Program-made: the position numbers and the translations under genes
Source: a virus
DNA length: 36,621 bases
Direction: 5' to 3' (one strand)
Virus record (IMG/VR): IMGVR_UViG_3300032213_000559
Span: 1 to 36,621 of that record
Shown here: one piece after another, positions 17,234 through 28,992 of the stretch
How positions within the stretch are numbered: position 1 is the stretch's first letter
Layout: the number at the start of each line of letters is the position of its first letter
Notes under the pieces: generated by a model
The model's database searches: none
The model's input: only the letters and a program-made list of their open reading frames with translations
What the model was told of the DNA's origin: nothing

Positions 17234-17418
17234 TGATTGACGATTTGCTCAATACCTTGAGCGCATCGCATGCGAAACTCAGCCCATTTTTTTATGAACT
17301 TAGGGTCTTCTGATGGCGGCATCCAATCGTAATTGGCGCGCCATCGGATGGTGACATCGGTGGTTGATGGCGTATAAATGTAATGGTCGCCCATACTCAT
17401 GTTATTACGTTTCTTCAT
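17230..17418 (-). CDS. Hypothetical protein (62 aa)
   Basis: I choose the start at 17418 because the reverse strand reads GGAGGAACT directly before this ATG; a longer in-frame form from 17454 has no such site. The 62-residue product is rich in Trp and Tyr (RWRANYDWMPPSEDPKFIKKW), has no membrane segment and no recognised domain. It is the last gene of the leftward early operon. Its stop overlaps the stop of the convergent Rz gene, and no terminator separates the two. Confidence 0.65.
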   Translation of the reverse strand: MKKRNNMSMGDHYIYTPSTTDVTIRWRANYDWMPPSEDPKFIKKWAEFRMRCAQGIEQIVNH

Positions 17419-17653
17419 AGTTCCTCCGGTCTTCGTTTTTCCTTCGCGTAGCAACTTCTTTCTTTTTCATTAACGCAACCTCTTCTTTAGTATAAATAGG
17501 TTTTGGTTCTGGTGGCGGCAACGATGCCAACCATACCTCGCCCGTATAAGCAGAAAAGCTGCATTTGTTGCATTTACGCAACCGCCTAACCCCGCCTGGC
17601 TGTTTTTGCGTCCATGTTACGTAGGTCTTAGTGCCGCACTCTTTACAGTTCAT
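17405..17653 (-). CDS. Zinc-ribbon protein
   Basis: This 82-residue protein has a C-x2-C knuckle at residues 3-6 (CKEC) and a second at 28-31 (CNKC), separated by a beta-type segment with Thr, Arg and Trp. This is a four-cysteine zinc ribbon like those of small transcription- or DNA-binding phage proteins. The C-terminal half is Pro-rich then strongly charged (KEEVALMKKKEVATRRKNEDRR). It starts in an ATGA overlap with the previous gene in the leftward operon and overlaps the next by 14 bases. Confidence 0.75.
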   Translation of the reverse strand: MNCKECGTKTYVTWTQKQPGGVRRLRKCNKCSFSAYTGEVWLASLPPPEPKPIYTKEEVALMKKKEVATRRKNEDRRNYEET

Positions 17654-17841: not shown

Positions 17842-18134
17842 GCCTTACCTTTCCAGTTAATAATTTCAACAGCTTTTAAATCATTTGTTTTTGCATCAAA
17901 CACCAATGAAAGATTAGGGAATTTTGCGCCGACATCAATAAACAATTCTCCGTTCAATATGTGCGCGTTTAACTCAATCGCATAATCAGGTTTAACGCGC
18001 AAACGGTATTCCGTTTCTTCACTCCATGAGGGATTGTCGCTGTCTTCCCACACTTGATTGCGCTTTGAGAATTTCTGAATCTTTGCGCCATCAGCCCATG
18101 CTTTGATTAGTTTTGCGTGTTTGTGTTCAGTCAT
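17838..18134 (-). CDS. Hypothetical phage protein with HxxLIKAWADGAxIQ motif
   Basis: This 98-residue protein starts with HKHAKLIKAWADGAKIQ, continues with V-W-E-D-S-x-N-P-S-W and Y-R-L-R-V-K-P, and has a beta-rich second half. That N-terminal signature is common in small early phage proteins of unknown function. The start has a GGAGG site (reverse strand, about 18142-18146) and an ATGA overlap with the helicase gene. No catalytic motif is seen. Confidence 0.7.
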   Translation of the reverse strand: MTEHKHAKLIKAWADGAKIQKFSKRNQVWEDSDNPSWSEETEYRLRVKPDYAIELNAHILNGELFIDVGAKFPNLSLVFDAKTNDLKAVEIINWKGKA

Positions 18135-19477
18135 TTCAATTCCTCCAATGCAACGTCAGATATAGCGCGTTTGTCTTTTAGTGCGCCGAGTATTTTTTCG
18201 TCCACTGTTTTATCAGTCATCATGATGTATACCCACACTGCGCGCATTTGACCGGAACGATGGAGCCGGCCGATGGTTTGCTCGTAGAGTTCCAAACTCC
18301 ACGGCAACGACAGAAAGACCATATGGCATCCTCCGTACTGTAAATTAAGGCCATGTCCTGCTGATTTTGGATGCACAGCGAGTAACTCCACTTCGCCTCG
18401 GTTCCATCGCTCAATCGCGTCCGCCTCATCCAACGTAACCACCTTGGGATGCCGCTTCTTAATTTCTGCAAGCTCTTCCTGATACATATACGCAATGATC
18501 GTATTCGCATGTTGATTCTCCTCTAGTAATTCTGCTAGTCGGTCAAACTTATGCGGGCTAAACCAAATGGCCGTTTTTGTTGTAGCAAACTTGCCTGGTT
18601 GAATTAGCGCCTGTGTTTCTGTCTGATAAACAAAACCCGATGACATCTGTTGTAACTTACCTGTGACTACTGCCGCGTTTGCTGCTATTGCTCTATCGTC
18701 CCCACCAAACTCCACTACAAAATCACGCTTCATTTTTGCGTAGTGCGTCATGTCCATTGTGCTGCGCACTTCAACGACGTTTAACGGTGGCAACGTGTCG
18801 CTGTACTCGCCAGGCTCTAATAGATACGTCGCTGGTTTAATCTTCTGCATCACTGCTTGTAAGCCACCGCGCTTGGGCATCCACTCACCATAGTCGCGGT
18901 TAACCAAAATAAAGTGCTGCTGCATGAACGCGCCCTTACTGCGGCCCAACAACTTCTCGTTGATGATCTTGCATTGCCCAAATACGTCTTCTAACCCATT
19001 GCTAGTAAACGATCCGGTTAAGCCCCAACGAATAGCAAACTGGTCAATCACTTTATGCAACGCTTTAAATCTGGCGCCGGATGGATTCTTTAATCGTGTC
19101 AGCTCATCAAACACAATTGCATCAAACCCAGCCACACCGTAATCAGCTAACCATTGCAGGTTGTCGTAATTGATAACAACGATATCTGACGATTTATCGA
19201 CAGCACGCAATCGATCTAACGGTGAACCGACAGCTAGGTTAAGTTTTAAAGTTGGCGCCCACTTCGATAATTCAACAGGCCAGACGTCAGTACAAACACG
19301 TTTGGGTGCTACAACTAAAAATCGTTTAGCATGTCCGTCTTTAATCATCGCGGCCATTGCTGTTAACGTGATCGCAGTCTTACCAGCGCCAACGGGCGCC
19401 AAGATCATTGCCTTGTCATTCCCGTAAAGGAAATCAGCAGCTTCGTCTTGGTAAGGTCTGAGTTTTAGCCCACTCAT
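18131..19477 (-). CDS. SNF2-type superfamily II helicase/ATPase
   Basis: This 448-residue protein has the SF2 motifs in order: Walker A APVGAGKT (27-34), motif Ia VVAPKRV (55-61), DEAD-like D-E-L-T (124-127), G-L-T-G-S motif III, and motif VI QTIGRLHRSGQ near residue 410, the SNF2-subfamily signature. It would use ATP to move on DNA during phage replication or recombination. It overlaps the nuclease gene by 44 bases. A SNF2 helicase beside VRR-NUC, DUF2800 and polymerase genes is a frequent phage replication module; here the two halves are divergent. Confidence 0.9.
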   Translation of the reverse strand: MSGLKLRPYQDEAADFLYGNDKAMILAPVGAGKTAITLTAMAAMIKDGHAKRFLVVAPKRVCTDVWPVELSKWAPTLKLNLAVGSPLDRLRAVDKSSDIVVINYDNLQWLADYGVAGFDAIVFDELTRLKNPSGARFKALHKVIDQFAIRWGLTGSFTSNGLEDVFGQCKIINEKLLGRSKGAFMQQHFILVNRDYGEWMPKRGGLQAVMQKIKPATYLLEPGEYSDTLPPLNVVEVRSTMDMTHYAKMKRDFVVEFGGDDRAIAANAAVVTGKLQQMSSGFVYQTETQALIQPGKFATTKTAIWFSPHKFDRLAELLEENQHANTIIAYMYQEELAEIKKRHPKVVTLDEADAIERWNRGEVELLAVHPKSAGHGLNLQYGGCHMVFLSLPWSLELYEQTIGRLHRSGQMRAVWVYIMMTDKTVDEKILGALKDKRAISDVALEELK

Positions 19478-19730
19478 CTATTTTTTCTTTCGTGTTTAGT
19501 AACGCGTACTTCTGATGCAAATCTACTACTTCATCGCGAAATATCACCTGAAGCGGCGATAGTTTGCCGCCTTTGGGGCGTTTCAATTCTACAAACCAAG
19601 TCGAGCCATTTGGCAGCGCAGCAATACGATCTGATACGCCGCGATTACTTGGCGACTTGAATTTGTAGGCTTTACCGCCCATGAATTCAACAGACCAAAC
19701 AAAGTATTTTTCGATCTCGGCTTCTTTCAT
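19434..19730 (-). CDS. VRR-NUC domain nuclease
   Basis: This 98-residue protein is taken from ATG 19730. An in-frame GTG 18 bases upstream lies inside the promoter and operator and is unlikely. The motif S-N-R-G-V-S-D-R-I (Asp34) followed by W-F-V-E-L-K-R-P (Glu48, Lys50) is the PD-(D/E)XK catalytic pattern of VRR-NUC nucleases. The length is typical of the minimal phage form. It probably cuts branched DNA during replication. No ribosome binding site precedes the start; the predicted transcript begins at or near the A of the ATG. Confidence 0.88.
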   Translation of the reverse strand: MKEAEIEKYFVWSVEFMGGKAYKFKSPSNRGVSDRIAALPNGSTWFVELKRPKGGKLSPLQVIFRDEVVDLHQKYALLNTKEKIDEWAKTQTLPRRSC

Positions 19731-19787
19731 GTGCGGAATATACCGCACAAAAAAAGTGTTGACAAGGGATTCTTTAATGTTTTATTC
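19728..19787. promoter_or_regulatory. Divergent promoter pair with palindromic operator
   Basis: Leftward promoter: TTGTCA (reverse strand, 19765-19760), a 17-base spacer, then TATATT (19742-19737). Rightward promoter: TTGACA (19759-19764), a 16-base spacer, then TTTATT (19781-19786). The two -35 boxes share the same bases. The leftward -10 is the centre of a perfect inverted repeat, TGTGCGG (19730-19736) and CCGCACA (19743-19749). A protein on that repeat would block the leftward promoter. The leftward start, about 7 bases beyond the -10, coincides with the ATG at 19730, predicting a leaderless mRNA for the nuclease gene. Confidence 0.7.
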
Positions 19788-19816
19788 TTTGGGTTCAAAC
19801 AGTAAAGGAGAGTAAA

Positions 19817-20116
19817 GTGAAAGACAACAGCACAGGAAAAAACGAGAATTTTTATAGTCTTGGCAAACAAATGTTTGACCGGATACAGCCGCTTACCCCT
19901 ACCATTCAAACCGATATTGATTTGTTATACAAAGCAAACAGCGCAGACATTGAGGCGTTGGAAGATGCAAAAATAACATTGAACGTCATTAAAGAAGTAG
20001 CGCCAGGTACTTTTGACGAAATGATTGATTCATCTTTGGCTTTGATAGATAAAGCGTTAGGTATGAGTTATGGCGACGCTTTGGAGCGTGTTGCAATTAA
20101 AGCAGGAGGCGAATAA
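19817..20116 (+). CDS. Hypothetical first gene of the rightward replication operon
   Basis: This 99-residue protein starts at GTG 19817 with AAGGAG 7 bases upstream. It is acidic and predicted helical (IDLLYKANSADIEALEDAKITL) and has no Cys, signal peptide or membrane segment. It is the first gene after the rightward promoter at 19759-19786 and overlaps the following nuclease gene by one base. Unknown family; its position suggests an early accessory factor of the nuclease or polymerase. Confidence 0.7.
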   Translation: MKDNSTGKNENFYSLGKQMFDRIQPLTPTIQTDIDLLYKANSADIEALEDAKITLNVIKEVAPGTFDEMIDSSLALIDKALGMSYGDALERVAIKAGGE

Positions 20117-21243
20117 TGCAACACTCCAACATCGTAGGTGGCAGCACCGCCAAGCGCGTCATAGCATGTCCAGCATCAGTTAAGCTGGTTCAACAGATAC
20201 CATCAAAAGACATCCCAAACGAATTTGCCGATCGCGGTACGCTACTGCATAACGTGATTGCTGATGTGCTTGAATTTAATGAAGCGCCTGAAAAATATCT
20301 TGGTACTAAGTACAATGACCAAGTGTTAACTGAGGAGTTAATTGATGAAAAGATTAATGTCGCACTGGCAGCACTTGAAGAAATTGATCCTACAAACGTC
20401 ATGGCATTTAAGATTGAAACGCGAGTGGGATTCGGTGATTTTCTACCTGGCGTGTTTGGCAGCACTGATCTACTTGGGCGCATCGGCAAGCGAGCTATTG
20501 TTTTAGATTGGAAGTTTGGCGACGGCGTATTAGTTAGCGCTGAAGAAAACTACCAACTCTTATTCTACGCAGCAGCCGCAATGCGAACCGAAGAATCAAA
20601 ATGGATTTTTGAAGGCGCGGATGAAATCGAATGTATTATTGTGCAGCCGCCAGAAATCCGACGCTGGGTAACTACGCCGCAGCGCGTCGCATTGTTCGAG
20701 CAAGAGCTGCGTCGTGCAGTGCATGCTAGTCAAAGCGAAGCGCCGATGTTTGAGACTGGCGACCATTGCCGGTGGTGCGCAGCTAAACCGATCTGCCCTA
20801 AGATGACAGGCCAAGTTGAACGCGTACTGCAAAGCAAATTGCAAGCGCTGCCGGTTGATCAGATTGCGCTACAGTTAGAGCAAGCTGATACCATTGAAAA
20901 CTACATCAAAGACTTGCGTGCGTTGGCCACACAAATGCTAGAGAATGGTCAGACCGTGCCAGGCTTTAAACTGGTGGCCAAGCGTGGTACACGTCAATGG
21001 GTTGATGAAGATGAGGTTCATAATTGGTACAACACGCATTTTACTAATGTAGATGACATATACGAACGCAAAATAAAATCGCCCGCGCAGCTAGAAAAGC
21101 TAGTAAAAAAATTAGGTAAAGAATTACCGTCGGAGTTAGTCGTATCAATTTCGTCGGGTAGTACGTTGGCGCCAGAATCTGATTCGAGGCCAGCGGTGTT
21201 GCAAATCGGGAAGCAGTTATCTGCGGCCCTTTCTAAAATCTAG
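20116..21243 (+). CDS. DUF2800 Cas4/RecB-like PD-(D/E)XK nuclease
   Basis: This 375-residue protein has an N-terminal V-I-A-C-P-A-S motif with Cys18, a central L-D-W-K-F-G-D-G motif (catalytic Asp-x-Lys), a Q-L-L-F-Y helix, and a C-terminal C-R-W-C-x5-C-P cluster. One N-terminal and three C-terminal cysteines are the [4Fe-4S] arrangement of Cas4/AddB-like nucleases, and the family matches DUF2800. It likely processes DNA ends in recombination-linked replication. A GGAGG site precedes the start, which overlaps the upstream stop (TAATG). Confidence 0.88.
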   Translation: MQHSNIVGGSTAKRVIACPASVKLVQQIPSKDIPNEFADRGTLLHNVIADVLEFNEAPEKYLGTKYNDQVLTEELIDEKINVALAALEEIDPTNVMAFKIETRVGFGDFLPGVFGSTDLLGRIGKRAIVLDWKFGDGVLVSAEENYQLLFYAAAAMRTEESKWIFEGADEIECIIVQPPEIRRWVTTPQRVALFEQELRRAVHASQSEAPMFETGDHCRWCAAKPICPKMTGQVERVLQSKLQALPVDQIALQLEQADTIENYIKDLRALATQMLENGQTVPGFKLVAKRGTRQWVDEDEVHNWYNTHFTNVDDIYERKIKSPAQLEKLVKKLGKELPSELVVSISSGSTLAPESDSRPAVLQIGKQLSAALSKI

Positions 21244-21982: not shown

Positions 21983-22129
21983 ATGAAATACCTATTGGCT
22001 TTATGGCTGGCTGTAACTGCGCCGCTTGTTTACGCTTCCTGTACTACGCATAACTTTTGCAATGCAAATGGATGCACCTATTGCACAACCTGTTGTTACG
22101 GTACAAGTTGCACTACCAACTGTTATTGA
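21983..22129 (+). CDS. Secreted eight-cysteine micro-protein (48 aa)
   Basis: This gene starts at ATG 21983 (AGGA 8 bases upstream) and stops at TGA 22127-22129. The N-terminus is a strong signal peptide (MKYLLALWLAVTAPLVYA), with a signal peptidase I site V-Y-A after residue 18. The 30-residue mature part has eight cysteines in the pattern C-x5-C-x4-C-x2-C-x2-C-C-x4-C-x3-C and otherwise small polar residues, Thr and Asn. It resembles disulphide-rich toxins or metal-binding micro-proteins in layout only. It lies one base before the DNA polymerase start. Unknown function; periplasmic or secreted action is likely. Confidence 0.8.
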   Translation: MKYLLALWLAVTAPLVYASCTTHNFCNANGCTYCTTCCYGTSCTTNCY

Positions 22130-22130
22130 C

Positions 22131-24083
22131 ATGTCTATTTTGTGGCTTGATTTCGAGACTCGCAGTCGCTGCGACCTATCATCGCGTGGAGTTTATAACT
22201 ATGCACAAGACGCCTCAACAGATGTACTTTGTATGTCATTCGCCTTTGATGACGGTGAAGTTCACACCTGGACACCCGATCAACCGTTCCCTGATTCAGT
22301 ACGAAAACACACAGGGCGCATACACGCGCACAACGCCGCTTTTGAGCGCCTTGTTTTCTGGTACGTACTGCAAATTAACTTTGACCTCGAGCAGTTCTAC
22401 TGCACCGCTACGCAAGCGCGTGCTAACTGCTTACCTGGAAGCCTCGAAGACGTCGGACGCGCGCTCAGTAGCAACATGCGAAAAGACCATCGAGGAAGCC
22501 AGCTTATCCGCGCACTTTCCATCCCTCGCCCTGATGGGTCGTTTAACAATTCGCCCGACTTAATGGCCGAGATGATCGCGTACTGCGAACAAGACGTTCG
22601 TGCTATGCGTGCCGTCTCAGAAGCCATGCGCCCACTATCAGATCAAGAGCTGGCCGACTATCACGTTAACGAGCGCATTAATGATCGCGGCGTTAAGCTC
22701 GATCTACCGTTAGCACAAGCGGCGATTAAATACGCCTCAGTCGAACTCGAAGAGATCGAGGGCATCGTTGAAGAGATCACGAAAAAAGAAATTACCTCGG
22801 TGCGCAGTCCGAAAATGAAGCAGTGGGTAATGGCTAGGATCGGCCCGCAAGCGTTGAAGCTGATGGAAACCTACAAGGATGACGAACTGAAGTACAGTAT
22901 CGATAAATCGGTTCGCGCCAATCTGCTTGCCTTGGCAAAAGAGGATAAAGATGAAACAGAAATTCCGGCCGCTGTCGCTGAAGTCATCCAGTGCGCAGAC
23001 GATCTTTGGGCGTCGTCAGTTGCGAAGTTCAGCCGCCTTTCTGGCCTTGCTGACGAAGAAGATCACCGTGTCCGTGGCGCCTTCGTCTTCGCTGGAGGAA
23101 GCGCTACGGGACGAGCTTCGTCGTATGGGGCGCAGGTTCACAACTTCACCCGAAAATGTGCCGATGACCCCGACGGAGTGCGCCACGCTATGGTACGAGG
23201 ACAGTCAATCGTCCCAAGATTTGGAAAACGGGTTACTGATGTTCTCAAGGGAATGCTCCGGCCCGCATTAATACCTGAAGCCGGTAAAGCGTTTGTCGTC
23301 TCTGATTGGTCGGCCGTTGAAGCCCGTGTAACTGCATGGGCGTCAAACGATCTACAAGCCGAAGATGTTCTAAACGTATTCCGTGATGGCCGTGACATTT
23401 ACGTTCGCGAAGCCGCCGGTATCTACCGTGTACCTGAAGACCAGATAACCAAAGACCAGCGCCAGATCGGCAAGGTCGCAATTCTATCCCTCGGCTTTGC
23501 CGGCGGCATCGGCGCCTTTGCTGCTATGGGTCGCGCTTATGGTCTGCACGTACCTGAGACGGATGCGAAGCGTATCGTTGACGCTTGGCGCCGTGCTAAC
23601 CAATGGGCAGTAGGGTATTGGGCGCAATTGGAGAGCGCCTACATGCGCGCTATGCGAAACCCAGGCCGAGAATTTAAAGCCGGTCGGGTGACGTACCTGT
23701 TTGATAAGCGCCATCTGTGGTACGCGCTACCATCCGGTCGCATTCTGTGCTATCCGTTCGCTAAACTTGAGGCCGAAGGCGTCAGTTACGTGAAAGCTGC
23801 ATGGAAACCGGCAGCCGACGCCAAAGAATGGCCAAGAGCGCGATTGTGGAAAGGTCTGGCCTGTGAGAACATAACGCAAGCGATCGCAAACGATTTGCTA
23901 CGGCATTCTTTACGCCAACTAGATGATGTCGTGCTGCATGTGCATGATGAAATCGTCTTAGAGTCCAGTACACCCGAACTGTCAGCTGCAAAACTCCGCG
24001 AAGTCATGTGTACGCCTCCCGAATGGGCGGCGGGTTTACCATTGAACGCGGAGACGGAAATCATGGCCAGATACGGCAAATAA
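22131..24083 (+). CDS. Family A DNA polymerase with 3'-5' exonuclease
   Basis: This 650-residue enzyme copies the phage genome. The start at ATG 22131 is chosen because the exonuclease domain begins at once; a longer frame open from 22026 runs over the cysteine-rich gene. Exonuclease motifs: D-F-E (7-9), HNAAFE (67-72) and YCEQD (151-155). Polymerase motifs: A, S-D-W-S-A-V-E-A-R (Asp392); B, RQIGKVAILSLGFAGG (444-459); C, H-V-H-D-E (603-607). No 5'-3' exonuclease domain is present, as in other phage Pol A enzymes. There is no clear ribosome site; translation may be coupled to the upstream micro-gene. Confidence 0.93.
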   Translation: MSILWLDFETRSRCDLSSRGVYNYAQDASTDVLCMSFAFDDGEVHTWTPDQPFPDSVRKHTGRIHAHNAAFERLVFWYVLQINFDLEQFYCTATQARANCLPGSLEDVGRALSSNMRKDHRGSQLIRALSIPRPDGSFNNSPDLMAEMIAYCEQDVRAMRAVSEAMRPLSDQELADYHVNERINDRGVKLDLPLAQAAIKYASVELEEIEGIVEEITKKEITSVRSPKMKQWVMARIGPQALKLMETYKDDELKYSIDKSVRANLLALAKEDKDETEIPAAVAEVIQCADDLWASSVAKFSRLSGLADEEDHRVRGAFVFAGGSATGRASSYGAQVHNFTRKCADDPDGVRHAMVRGQSIVPRFGKRVTDVLKGMLRPALIPEAGKAFVVSDWSAVEARVTAWASNDLQAEDVLNVFRDGRDIYVREAAGIYRVPEDQITKDQRQIGKVAILSLGFAGGIGAFAAMGRAYGLHVPETDAKRIVDAWRRANQWAVGYWAQLESAYMRAMRNPGREFKAGRVTYLFDKRHLWYALPSGRILCYPFAKLEAEGVSYVKAAWKPAADAKEWPRARLWKGLACENITQAIANDLLRHSLRQLDDVVLHVHDEIVLESSTPELSAAKLREVMCTPPEWAAGLPLNAETEIMARYGK

Positions 24084-24127: not shown

Positions 24128-26407
24128 ATGTACTTTTTGGATTATCTCATGAGTTTGGCGCCAGAGGGTGAAACGGCGCTGTTTGTACGACAAAAACCAA
24201 TCCTAACTGACGGGCAATTACAGTTTCACGCTGACGGCGCAATCAAGGCCACTTGGCCATCATTTTTGCCAAACCCAAGCCTAGTTAAAGATGGTCAAGC
24301 ATGGTTCGGCAATACCGGATCGTTCATTATCGACCGGCTAGACAAGAATAAACCGTCGGCGTCTAAGCATAACGTCGAGTACGTGCTGGCGATGATGTTA
24401 GACGACATCGGCACTAAATCTAAAACCCCGCCACTGGCGCCGACGTGGATTATCGAAACGTCTGAAGGTAACTATCAGTGGGGTTACGCATTCTCAGAGC
24501 AACCGCCAAAGGCCGAGTTTTGCGCGGCCGTTAACGCATTGGCAGCTGCCGGTTATACCGACCCAGGCGCTAACAACCCAGTGCGAAATTTTAGACTACC
24601 AGGCGCTGTTAATTTCAAGCGTGGTAATTTCGTCTCGCGCTTAGTTGAATTCCACCCTGAGCGCGAATACACATTAGAACAAATTTGTTATGCCTGTGAT
24701 GTGGTTCCAGGCGAGGCGACTACCGACGGCCCGTCGGCTATCCGCTTAACCGACGACGGCAACGACGACGTAATGGCATGGTTATCCGCGCAGAATATGG
24801 TCTATTCCAAGACCAATTCCGAGGGCTGGATGGGCGTGCATTGTCCGAATGCTAGTGAGCATTCCGACGGTAATCCTGAAGCACGTTATATGCCAGCTAA
24901 CCGTGCTTTTTGCTGCTATCACGGCCACTGTCAGGGATTTGGATCGGCTGCGTTTTTGGATTGGGTAGCTGCAAACGGAGGCCCAGCTCACACACCTGGA
25001 CTGCGCGAAGAGCTGTTAGTTAAGGCGATGGACGCTGCTTTAGCTAAACTGGAGCCTACCGAGGATTTTCCTGATGCGGCCGAAATAATCATCGCTGAAT
25101 CAGATCGCAAACAGAGCGCCAGGGATGAAAAGGCCGCATGGTATGACCGTTACGCCTACGTGCAGGAGGACGACGCCTATTTCGACTTGGATACCCGCCG
25201 CGAACTGGGGCGCAGTACTTTTAACGCGCTTTATCGTCATATCGGCTGCAACTCGATACACAACAACGGCAAGATCGAAGCGTCAACCTGCTTTGATGAA
25301 AACCGAGCCGGCAAAGGCGCGCTTGCCCTCGAGGGCATAACCTACGCTGCGGGCGAGCCGGTGATCGTTAACGGCACGCATGGCAATCGGTGGGTAAACG
25401 CAAGGCCAGCCGGCAAAGCCGGAGACGTAAACCTGTGGTTAGCTCACGTTAACCGGATGATACCCATTGATTTCGAGCGCGAGCATTTTTTGAGTGCGTT
25501 AGCGTACAAAGTGCAAAACCCAAACCGGAAAATTAACCACGCGATTCTGATCGGCGGTCACCCTGGCAGCGGTAAAGATACTATGTTAGCGCCCTTCTTT
25601 TGGGCGATCGGTGGTGAATCAAAACTAAACTGCAGCCTAGTGCGCAATGAAGACCTGAATTCGCAATGGGGTTATGCGCTTGAGTGCGAAGTGATGGAAA
25701 TAGCCGAACTAAGGCAGAGCGAAGCCAAAGACCGCCGCGCATTAGAAAACGCTTTGAAGCCAATTATTGCGGCGCCTCCTGAATACCTATCAATTAATCG
25801 CAAGGGCCTACACCCTTACCAGGCGCTAAACCGAGTCTTTGTGGTGGCATTCTCAAACGAGAGGGCAGCTATCAGCATACCGTCGGATGATCGCCGGTGG
25901 TTCTGCGTTTGGTCGGACGCCGGCCGCTTGCCTGAAACCGACGCCCTGGCGCTCTGGCAATGGTATCAAACGGGCGCCGGTTTTGCGGCCGTCGCTGATT
26001 ACCTGGCTAAACTGAATGTTAGCGCGTTTAACCCAGGCGCCACGCCGCCAATGACAGAAGCAAAAGCAATTATGATTGATCAAGGGCGCAGCATGGCCGA
26101 GTCATACCTGATCGACCTAATATCGAACCGGCTGGGTGAATTCGCTTCCGGCGTGATAGCGTCGCCCTTCTTTCCGCTATGCGATCGACTAGCCGGCGGC
26201 GCCCCTTCCGGTGTGCGAGTACCGCCGGCCGCGCTATTGCATGCGTTGCGCGAATCAGGCTGGATAGACTGCGGCCGGATTAATACGCGCGAATTAACGA
26301 CTAAGCGCCAGATATACGCGGCGCCCGATATGGCCGATAAACCAAAAGCGGAATTGCGGCGCCTGGTAGAAGAGGCGCCTCAGCCTAAACTTGTCAGCGT
26401 TAAATAA
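24128..26407 (+). CDS. Primase-helicase (prim-pol plus SF3 helicase, DUF5906-like)
   Basis: This 759-residue protein combines a primase-like N-terminal half with an ATPase half. The N-terminal part has WIIETSEGNYQWGYAF and N-F-R-L-P-G-A-V-N-F-K segments typical of archaeo-eukaryotic-type primases. A cysteine/histidine cluster around residues 236-280 (VHCPNASEH, then CCYHGHCQGFG) suggests a zinc ribbon. Walker A G-H-P-G-S-G-K-D-T sits near residue 477 in an SF3-like helicase domain. It would unwind DNA and prime synthesis for the polymerase upstream. A GGAGG site precedes the start. Confidence 0.87.
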   Translation: MYFLDYLMSLAPEGETALFVRQKPILTDGQLQFHADGAIKATWPSFLPNPSLVKDGQAWFGNTGSFIIDRLDKNKPSASKHNVEYVLAMMLDDIGTKSKTPPLAPTWIIETSEGNYQWGYAFSEQPPKAEFCAAVNALAAAGYTDPGANNPVRNFRLPGAVNFKRGNFVSRLVEFHPEREYTLEQICYACDVVPGEATTDGPSAIRLTDDGNDDVMAWLSAQNMVYSKTNSEGWMGVHCPNASEHSDGNPEARYMPANRAFCCYHGHCQGFGSAAFLDWVAANGGPAHTPGLREELLVKAMDAALAKLEPTEDFPDAAEIIIAESDRKQSARDEKAAWYDRYAYVQEDDAYFDLDTRRELGRSTFNALYRHIGCNSIHNNGKIEASTCFDENRAGKGALALEGITYAAGEPVIVNGTHGNRWVNARPAGKAGDVNLWLAHVNRMIPIDFEREHFLSALAYKVQNPNRKINHAILIGGHPGSGKDTMLAPFFWAIGGESKLNCSLVRNEDLNSQWGYALECEVMEIAELRQSEAKDRRALENALKPIIAAPPEYLSINRKGLHPYQALNRVFVVAFSNERAAISIPSDDRRWFCVWSDAGRLPETDALALWQWYQTGAGFAAVADYLAKLNVSAFNPGATPPMTEAKAIMIDQGRSMAESYLIDLISNRLGEFASGVIASPFFPLCDRLAGGAPSGVRVPPAALLHALRESGWIDCGRINTRELTTKRQIYAAPDMADKPKAELRRLVEEAPQPKLVSVK

Positions 26408-28710: not shown

Positions 28711-28745
28711 ACATTATTTTATATACCCCTACAAGTTAGTGGGTC

Positions 28746-28992
28746 TTGACAGTCATTGACAGTCATTGTGCACGTCATCCGGCAAAGGGCATAAAAGCGC
28801 TGAGATACCGCGCAAACACTGGGTTTTTTGCCTTATGCACGTCAGACAGTCATCAAAAATCACAAGTCACAAATTATCTTATACAGTACTGTATATCCGT
28901 ACATGTATATGTACAGGCCACGCTAGAAAGTACTGTACAAAAGGGGTCGAGCAATTCAAAATCGACTGTCCGATGACGTGCATGACGTGCAT
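28746..28992. repeat. Iteron/operator-like repeat field
   Basis: This intergenic stretch holds two related 9-base words. GACAGTCAT occurs at 28748, 28758 and 28845; the first two lie within a tandem TTGACAGTCA repeat of 10-base period. GCACGTCA(T) occurs forward at 28770 and 28837 and reverse as the tandem ATGACGTGC at 28973 and 28982. All share the core GTCA(T), giving seven sites in about 245 bases. Between them lie palindromes at 28880-28938. The field sits between the consensus leftward promoter and the small DNA-binding gene at 28999, whose start region it touches. Confidence 0.75.
28880..28938. repeat. Cluster of GTAC-centred palindromes
   Basis: Three palindromic elements follow each other: a perfect 16-base palindrome TATACAGTACTGTATA (28880-28895), an inverted repeat GTACAT-GTAT-ATGTAC (28899-28914), and GTAC-T-GTAC (28930-28938). 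The junction CTGT-N8-ACAT (28889-28904) resembles, one base off, the CTGT-N8-ACAG form of enterobacterial LexA boxes. They are probable binding sites for a dimeric repressor or replication protein. Confidence 0.55.

Follow-up and report, generated by a model that had tools for sequence, protein, structure and literature searches.

Divergent promoters with overlapping -35 boxes and a predicted leaderless nuclease mRNA in the replication module of an uncultivated phage

Phage replication genes are here split into two blocks that are transcribed away from one another, and the question raised by the locus is how both can be started from the short space between them, and whether the sequences found there form a switch. 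The window analysed is an entire virus record of 36,621 bases, in which terminase, portal, tail and lysis genes are located elsewhere. The leftward operon opens with a VRR-NUC-type endonuclease gene (19434..19730, minus strand; 98 aa counted from its ATG), which matches phrog_93 (endonuclease, E 3.3e-20) and has no Pfam match at 1e-3, followed by an SNF2/DEAD-type helicase as its second gene (18131..19477, minus strand; Pfam SNF2-rel_dom and Helicase_C, phrog_62 DNA helicase). Near the end of this operon, a small protein is encoded at 17405-17653 (minus strand); its Zn-ribbon NrdR-like match is weak and does not reach the Pfam cut-off. The rightward operon begins with a small gene of 99 aa (19817..20116, plus strand) and continues with a DUF2800 / PD-(D/E)XK exonuclease (20116..21243, plus strand; Pfam DUF2800 E 2.6e-58, phrog_69 exonuclease), a family A DNA polymerase (22026..24083, plus strand; Pfam DNA_pol_A, phrog_17) and a primase/helicase (24128..26407, plus strand; DUF5906 plus RepB_primase, phrog_1156 DNA primase). 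The 99-aa gene is modular: tblastn places it at nine loci including the window, the copies outside the window being 76-86% identical to the window copy, and in close relatives that lack it the rightward side opens directly with DUF2800, this insertion being missing from most relatives. Further to the right, positions 28740-28925 hold TTGACAGTCA direct repeats and the palindrome ATACAGTACTGTAT, a candidate origin or regulatory region. Among the ORFs scanned against Pfam and PHROGs, many of them small and without a family, no repressor or other regulator, integrase or lysogeny gene was recognised.

Two promoter-like sequences lie back to back between the operons. On the minus strand, a -35 box TTGTCA (19760..19765) is followed after a 17-bp spacer by a -10 box TATATT (19737..19742), which is invariant in seven close upstream sequences and ends six bases ahead of the nuclease ATG at 19730. 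On the plus strand, a -35 box TTGACA (19759..19764), which already equals the consensus, overlaps the leftward -35 by 5 bp and is followed after an 18-bp spacer by a -10 box TATTCT (19783..19788), a Shine-Dalgarno site AAAGGAGAG (19804..19812) and, 3' of it, the GTG start of the first rightward gene at 19817. A Shine-Dalgarno-like site with a start codon is found on this side in 115 of 129 relatives. The scanned 12 kb contain eight promoter-like sites, fewer than in shuffled sequence, and the best two are the two divergent promoters with 10/12 matches each. Both are sigma-70-like in sequence. The overlap of the -35 boxes proposed in a first-pass annotation of this DNA is confirmed at these coordinates, and from the geometry of the 5-bp overlap it is likely that polymerases bound at the two promoters would exclude one another.

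To place these features in a wider setting, five scans of viral contigs were combined, yielding about 300 loci. The sequence upstream of the nuclease ATG was extracted from 280 of them (the same contig may recur), giving 148 distinct 60-base sequences, and clustering of the nuclease proteins gives 65 groups at 90% identity and 23 at 70%; as these lineages are related, the lineage counts given below are not counts of independent events. The scan of the genome collection confirmed no relative in a host or prophage, the search for named phages sharing this promoter region gave only a single weak DNA match, over the helicase, and the arrangement is described in none of the titles and abstracts listed by literature searches on leaderless or VRR-NUC phage genes.

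On the leftward side, the A of the nuclease ATG is the seventh base after TATATT, which is the placement of the -10 for a gene with a leaderless mRNA, and no Shine-Dalgarno site precedes the ATG. The predicted transcription start at 19730 (minus strand) would therefore coincide with the start codon, as the first-pass annotation had suggested, and its position is conserved. A -10 hexamer ending 5-9 nt before the nuclease ATG is present in 131 of the 148 distinct upstream sequences, at least two of which are spurious (L131 and L161 are false positives, because both carry a longer leader with AGGAG), so that approximately 129 of 148 are alike, compared with 7 of 148 for the helicase starts of the same loci and 19% for shuffled upstream sequence. 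The distance is concentrated at 6 nt (47 sequences) and 7 nt (75 sequences), and the arrangement holds in 19 of the 23 lineages defined at 70% protein identity. Shine-Dalgarno-like motifs, in turn, are found at 11/148 nuclease starts versus 61/148 helicase starts, and several of the eleven are simply the AGGA within a TAGGAT -10 box. Among the loci without a -10, at least eight have the nuclease inside an operon and no such promoter; in these (L176, L177, L178, L194, L201, L209, L214 and L228) it is apparently embedded behind another gene, with neither a -10 before its start nor a Shine-Dalgarno-like site. Three loci (L131, L161 and L175) are rare leadered forms, in which a stretch of roughly 20 nt carries AGGAG or GGAGG, and provide natural counterparts to the predominant form. 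The conservation among relatives backs the predicted start, and a leaderless nuclease mRNA is well supported by these comparisons. In principle, a longer transcript could instead be translated from an in-frame GTG ahead of the ATG (19748), in which case the mRNA would not be leaderless, and the mechanically called ORF does extend to this codon; however, this GTG is located 5' of the -10 and is preceded by poly-T rather than a Shine-Dalgarno site, in 63 of 131 relatives a stop interrupts the frame within 10 codons 5' of the ATG, 66 of 131 offer no other start codon before a stop is reached, and homology in relatives begins at the ATG. This start is thus highly improbable, and we reject it.

The box shared by the two promoters is conserved in a manner that is informative about its use on both strands. 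When sequences were selected on TTGTCA alone, the seventh base was A in 52 of 52 distinct sequences (TTGACA was found in that place once), and these 52 represent 21 lineages at 90% and 11 at 70%. Among the 21 lineage representatives, all seven bases of the box (TTGTCAA leftward, TTGACAA rightward) are invariant, whereas the immediate flanking bases are conserved in only about half. A leftward -35 by itself would favour A at position four and be indifferent to position seven. The T at base four and the A at base seven go beyond the needs of the leftward promoter and make TTGACA on the other strand. The -10 boxes are located accordingly, at about 17 bp on either side: on the right, 17 of 21 lineages have TAnnnT at a distance of 16-18 bp from the shared box, and on the left about 20 of 21 do (20 counts over 21 lineages), other spacings being rare in either direction. 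A conserved -10 at 16-18 bp on both sides is the pattern of divergent promoters with a shared -35, and two functional promoters on one -35 element are well supported by it. The shared TTGTCAA is nevertheless one solution within the group and not a universal one. In a second group of 19 sequences the shared element is TTGTGCAA or its reverse complement, and a third group of 52 sequences has, in place of a shared -35, twin outward-facing extended -10 elements (TGnTAnnnT) separated by an 18-nt gap in 48 of the 52. Polymerase footprints would be predicted to overlap in all three promoter groups. Two additional inverted repeats were seen in these relatives: those with the twin extended -10 (L218, L204, L160 and 49 others), in which the nuclease is still leaderless, often carry TAGCACA...TGTGCTA, and L183, L180, L168, L171 and similar loci have a second repeat, TTGTCAA...TTGACA, between the -35 and the -10, a possible regulator site.

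In the window itself, an imperfect inverted repeat (TGTGCGG-AATATA-CCGCACA, 19730..19749) surrounds the leftward -10. The first-pass annotation had described it as a perfect 20-base repeat with the -10 at its centre, and had proposed that a repressor bound there would, together with polymerase exclusion, form a switch that decides between the two halves of the replication module. The central hexamer is indeed TATATT, but the repeat pairs at 9 of 10 positions, the mismatch being A/A at pair 8. The window contains 53 exact 7+7 repeats whose spacers are no longer than 12, compared with 25-45 in eight shuffles, so repeats of such size are common, but it is uncommon for one to be centred on a -10; the complete 7+6+7 motif occurs once, and no further copies that could form a regulon were found in the window beyond chance. 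In favour of a repressor, the repeat is real, has no second copy in the window and has the -10 at its centre, and seven paired positions are rarer than expected from arms dealt among the relatives. Against it, the repeat is intact in only four of the nine closest contigs (the window and three others, with two distinct upstream sequences), is broken without compensatory changes in the other five, and is absent from more distant relatives. Among close relatives the arms are the most variable portion of the promoter core: 8 of 13 arm columns upstream of the ATG vary, compared with none of the six -10 columns and none of the seven that make up the shared box (hypergeometric P 0.004), and across the 131 promoters the arms, this lineage excepted, pair no better than arms dealt at random. 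A conserved operator, as in a lambda-type genetic switch, is therefore not found, and neither Pfam nor PHROGs identified a regulator among the scanned ORFs. The annotation had itself made its palindromic operator depend on conservation of the repeat, and with that conservation lacking the claim is refuted; its promoter overlap and leaderless start, on the other hand, were borne out. By this comparison, the repeat is a local peculiarity. TTTCGGAC, which occurs in distant relatives too, seems to be the ancestral form of the right arm. An operator specific to this lineage is possible, and we consider a repressor-based switch improbable. The palindrome was also considered as an RNA hairpin and discarded by reasoning, as it would lie in neither transcript if the left mRNA starts at 19730.

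How, then, might the locus work? The probable explanation, in our view, is that competing back-to-back sigma-70-type promoters on a shared -35 set the ratio between the two gene blocks, with low translation of the leaderless nuclease mRNA. In the proposed model, the quasi-symmetric element TTGTCAA/TTGACAA could be docked by sigma region 4 in either orientation, and since docking can occur either way, one bound polymerase would exclude the other. Reading to the right would produce a Shine-Dalgarno-led mRNA for the DUF2800 exonuclease, the family A polymerase and the primase, and reading to the left an mRNA that starts at the AUG of the VRR-NUC-type endonuclease and continues into the SNF2 helicase, translated via a leaderless (70S-type) route. 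In Escherichia coli, leaderless initiation has been linked to a reduced rate of translation initiation (PMC5333194), and this route responds to initiator tRNA and initiation factors (PMC9031893); the nuclease level could be kept low in this way and would vary with the condition of the translation apparatus. The outcome is likely a fixed ratio between the two gene blocks and not a bistable decision, and overlapping promoters need not work as a switch. For five tested bidirectional promoters of E. coli, there was little competition at basal activity and substantial competition once one -35 was improved (PMC12825309), and at the present locus competition may be relevant only when one or both promoters are strong. 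We infer that the host polymerase would be used, that mutual exclusion and low nuclease translation occur and that timing and a benefit to the phage are involved; the label 'early' for both operons is of the same kind.

A simpler account would be economy of genome space, with two ordinary constitutive promoters packed together, the overlap and the missing leader saving bases and no regulation being involved. Phage intergenic spaces are short, and compactness is reached through different sequences in different lineages (a shared -35 or twin extended -10 elements). However, TTGTCAA and the distance from the -10 to the ATG are strictly invariant over divergent lineages, and because the Shine-Dalgarno-led right side retains its leader, space alone fails to explain why the leader is lost only on the left. 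We regard economy as a rather unlikely explanation on the whole. Returning to the competing promoters, a stronger version would be that they form a selected, repressor-free control unit, in which polymerase exclusion at a shared or interleaved promoter core and the leaderless nuclease mRNA set the ratio of nuclease/helicase to polymerase as well as its timing, and in which lineages swap the promoter sequences but retain both the exclusion and the leaderless start; this we put forward tentatively, as a possibility about which we have more doubt than confidence.

To our knowledge, the conserved leaderless genes known in phages are mainly those of repressors. In this broad uncultivated phage group it is a replication nuclease that retains a predicted zero-length leader, while the surrounding promoter sequences change. 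The closest annotated phage record, judged by the helicase (59% protein identity), is Podovirus ctNMl277 from Manatee Spring (MW202483.1), in which the same helicase adjoins a small upstream gene; unlike the window, it has TTGTGCAA upstream of the nuclease and no -10 at the expected distance from the homology-inferred start. Divergent phage promoters with leaderless mRNAs are also found at cI/cro of PY54, where 5' ends have been mapped to the AUG of both cI and cro (PMC4488713), and lambda cI has a leaderless mRNA as well; there, however, the genes encode repressors that belong to an operator-bearing lysogeny switch, in contrast to a replication nuclease without a conserved operator. In the EcoRV (and CfrBI) restriction-modification systems, the divergent core promoters likewise overlap, two polymerases cannot bind at once and a nuclease lies on one side (PMC5333194). 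The EcoRV system, however, has a C-protein regulator with its own sites and a leadered C transcript, whereas here no regulator was found, the overlap is in the -35 box and the left mRNA is predicted to be leaderless. The bidirectional promoters of E. coli described by Warman, Grainger and co-workers are similarly built on pseudo-symmetric DNA, with binding one way blocking the other, and share a -10, so that starts are typically 10, 18 or 23 bp apart (PMC12825309). The present locus is not a bidirectional promoter in this classical sense, as its -10 boxes are separate (19737-19742 and 19783-19788); it is the -35 that is shared, and the predicted starts are about 63 bp apart. Set beside these systems, the phage group provides natural variants in a clean series, with which one can ask why a gene is kept leaderless and what effect sharing a -35 has on divergent expression.
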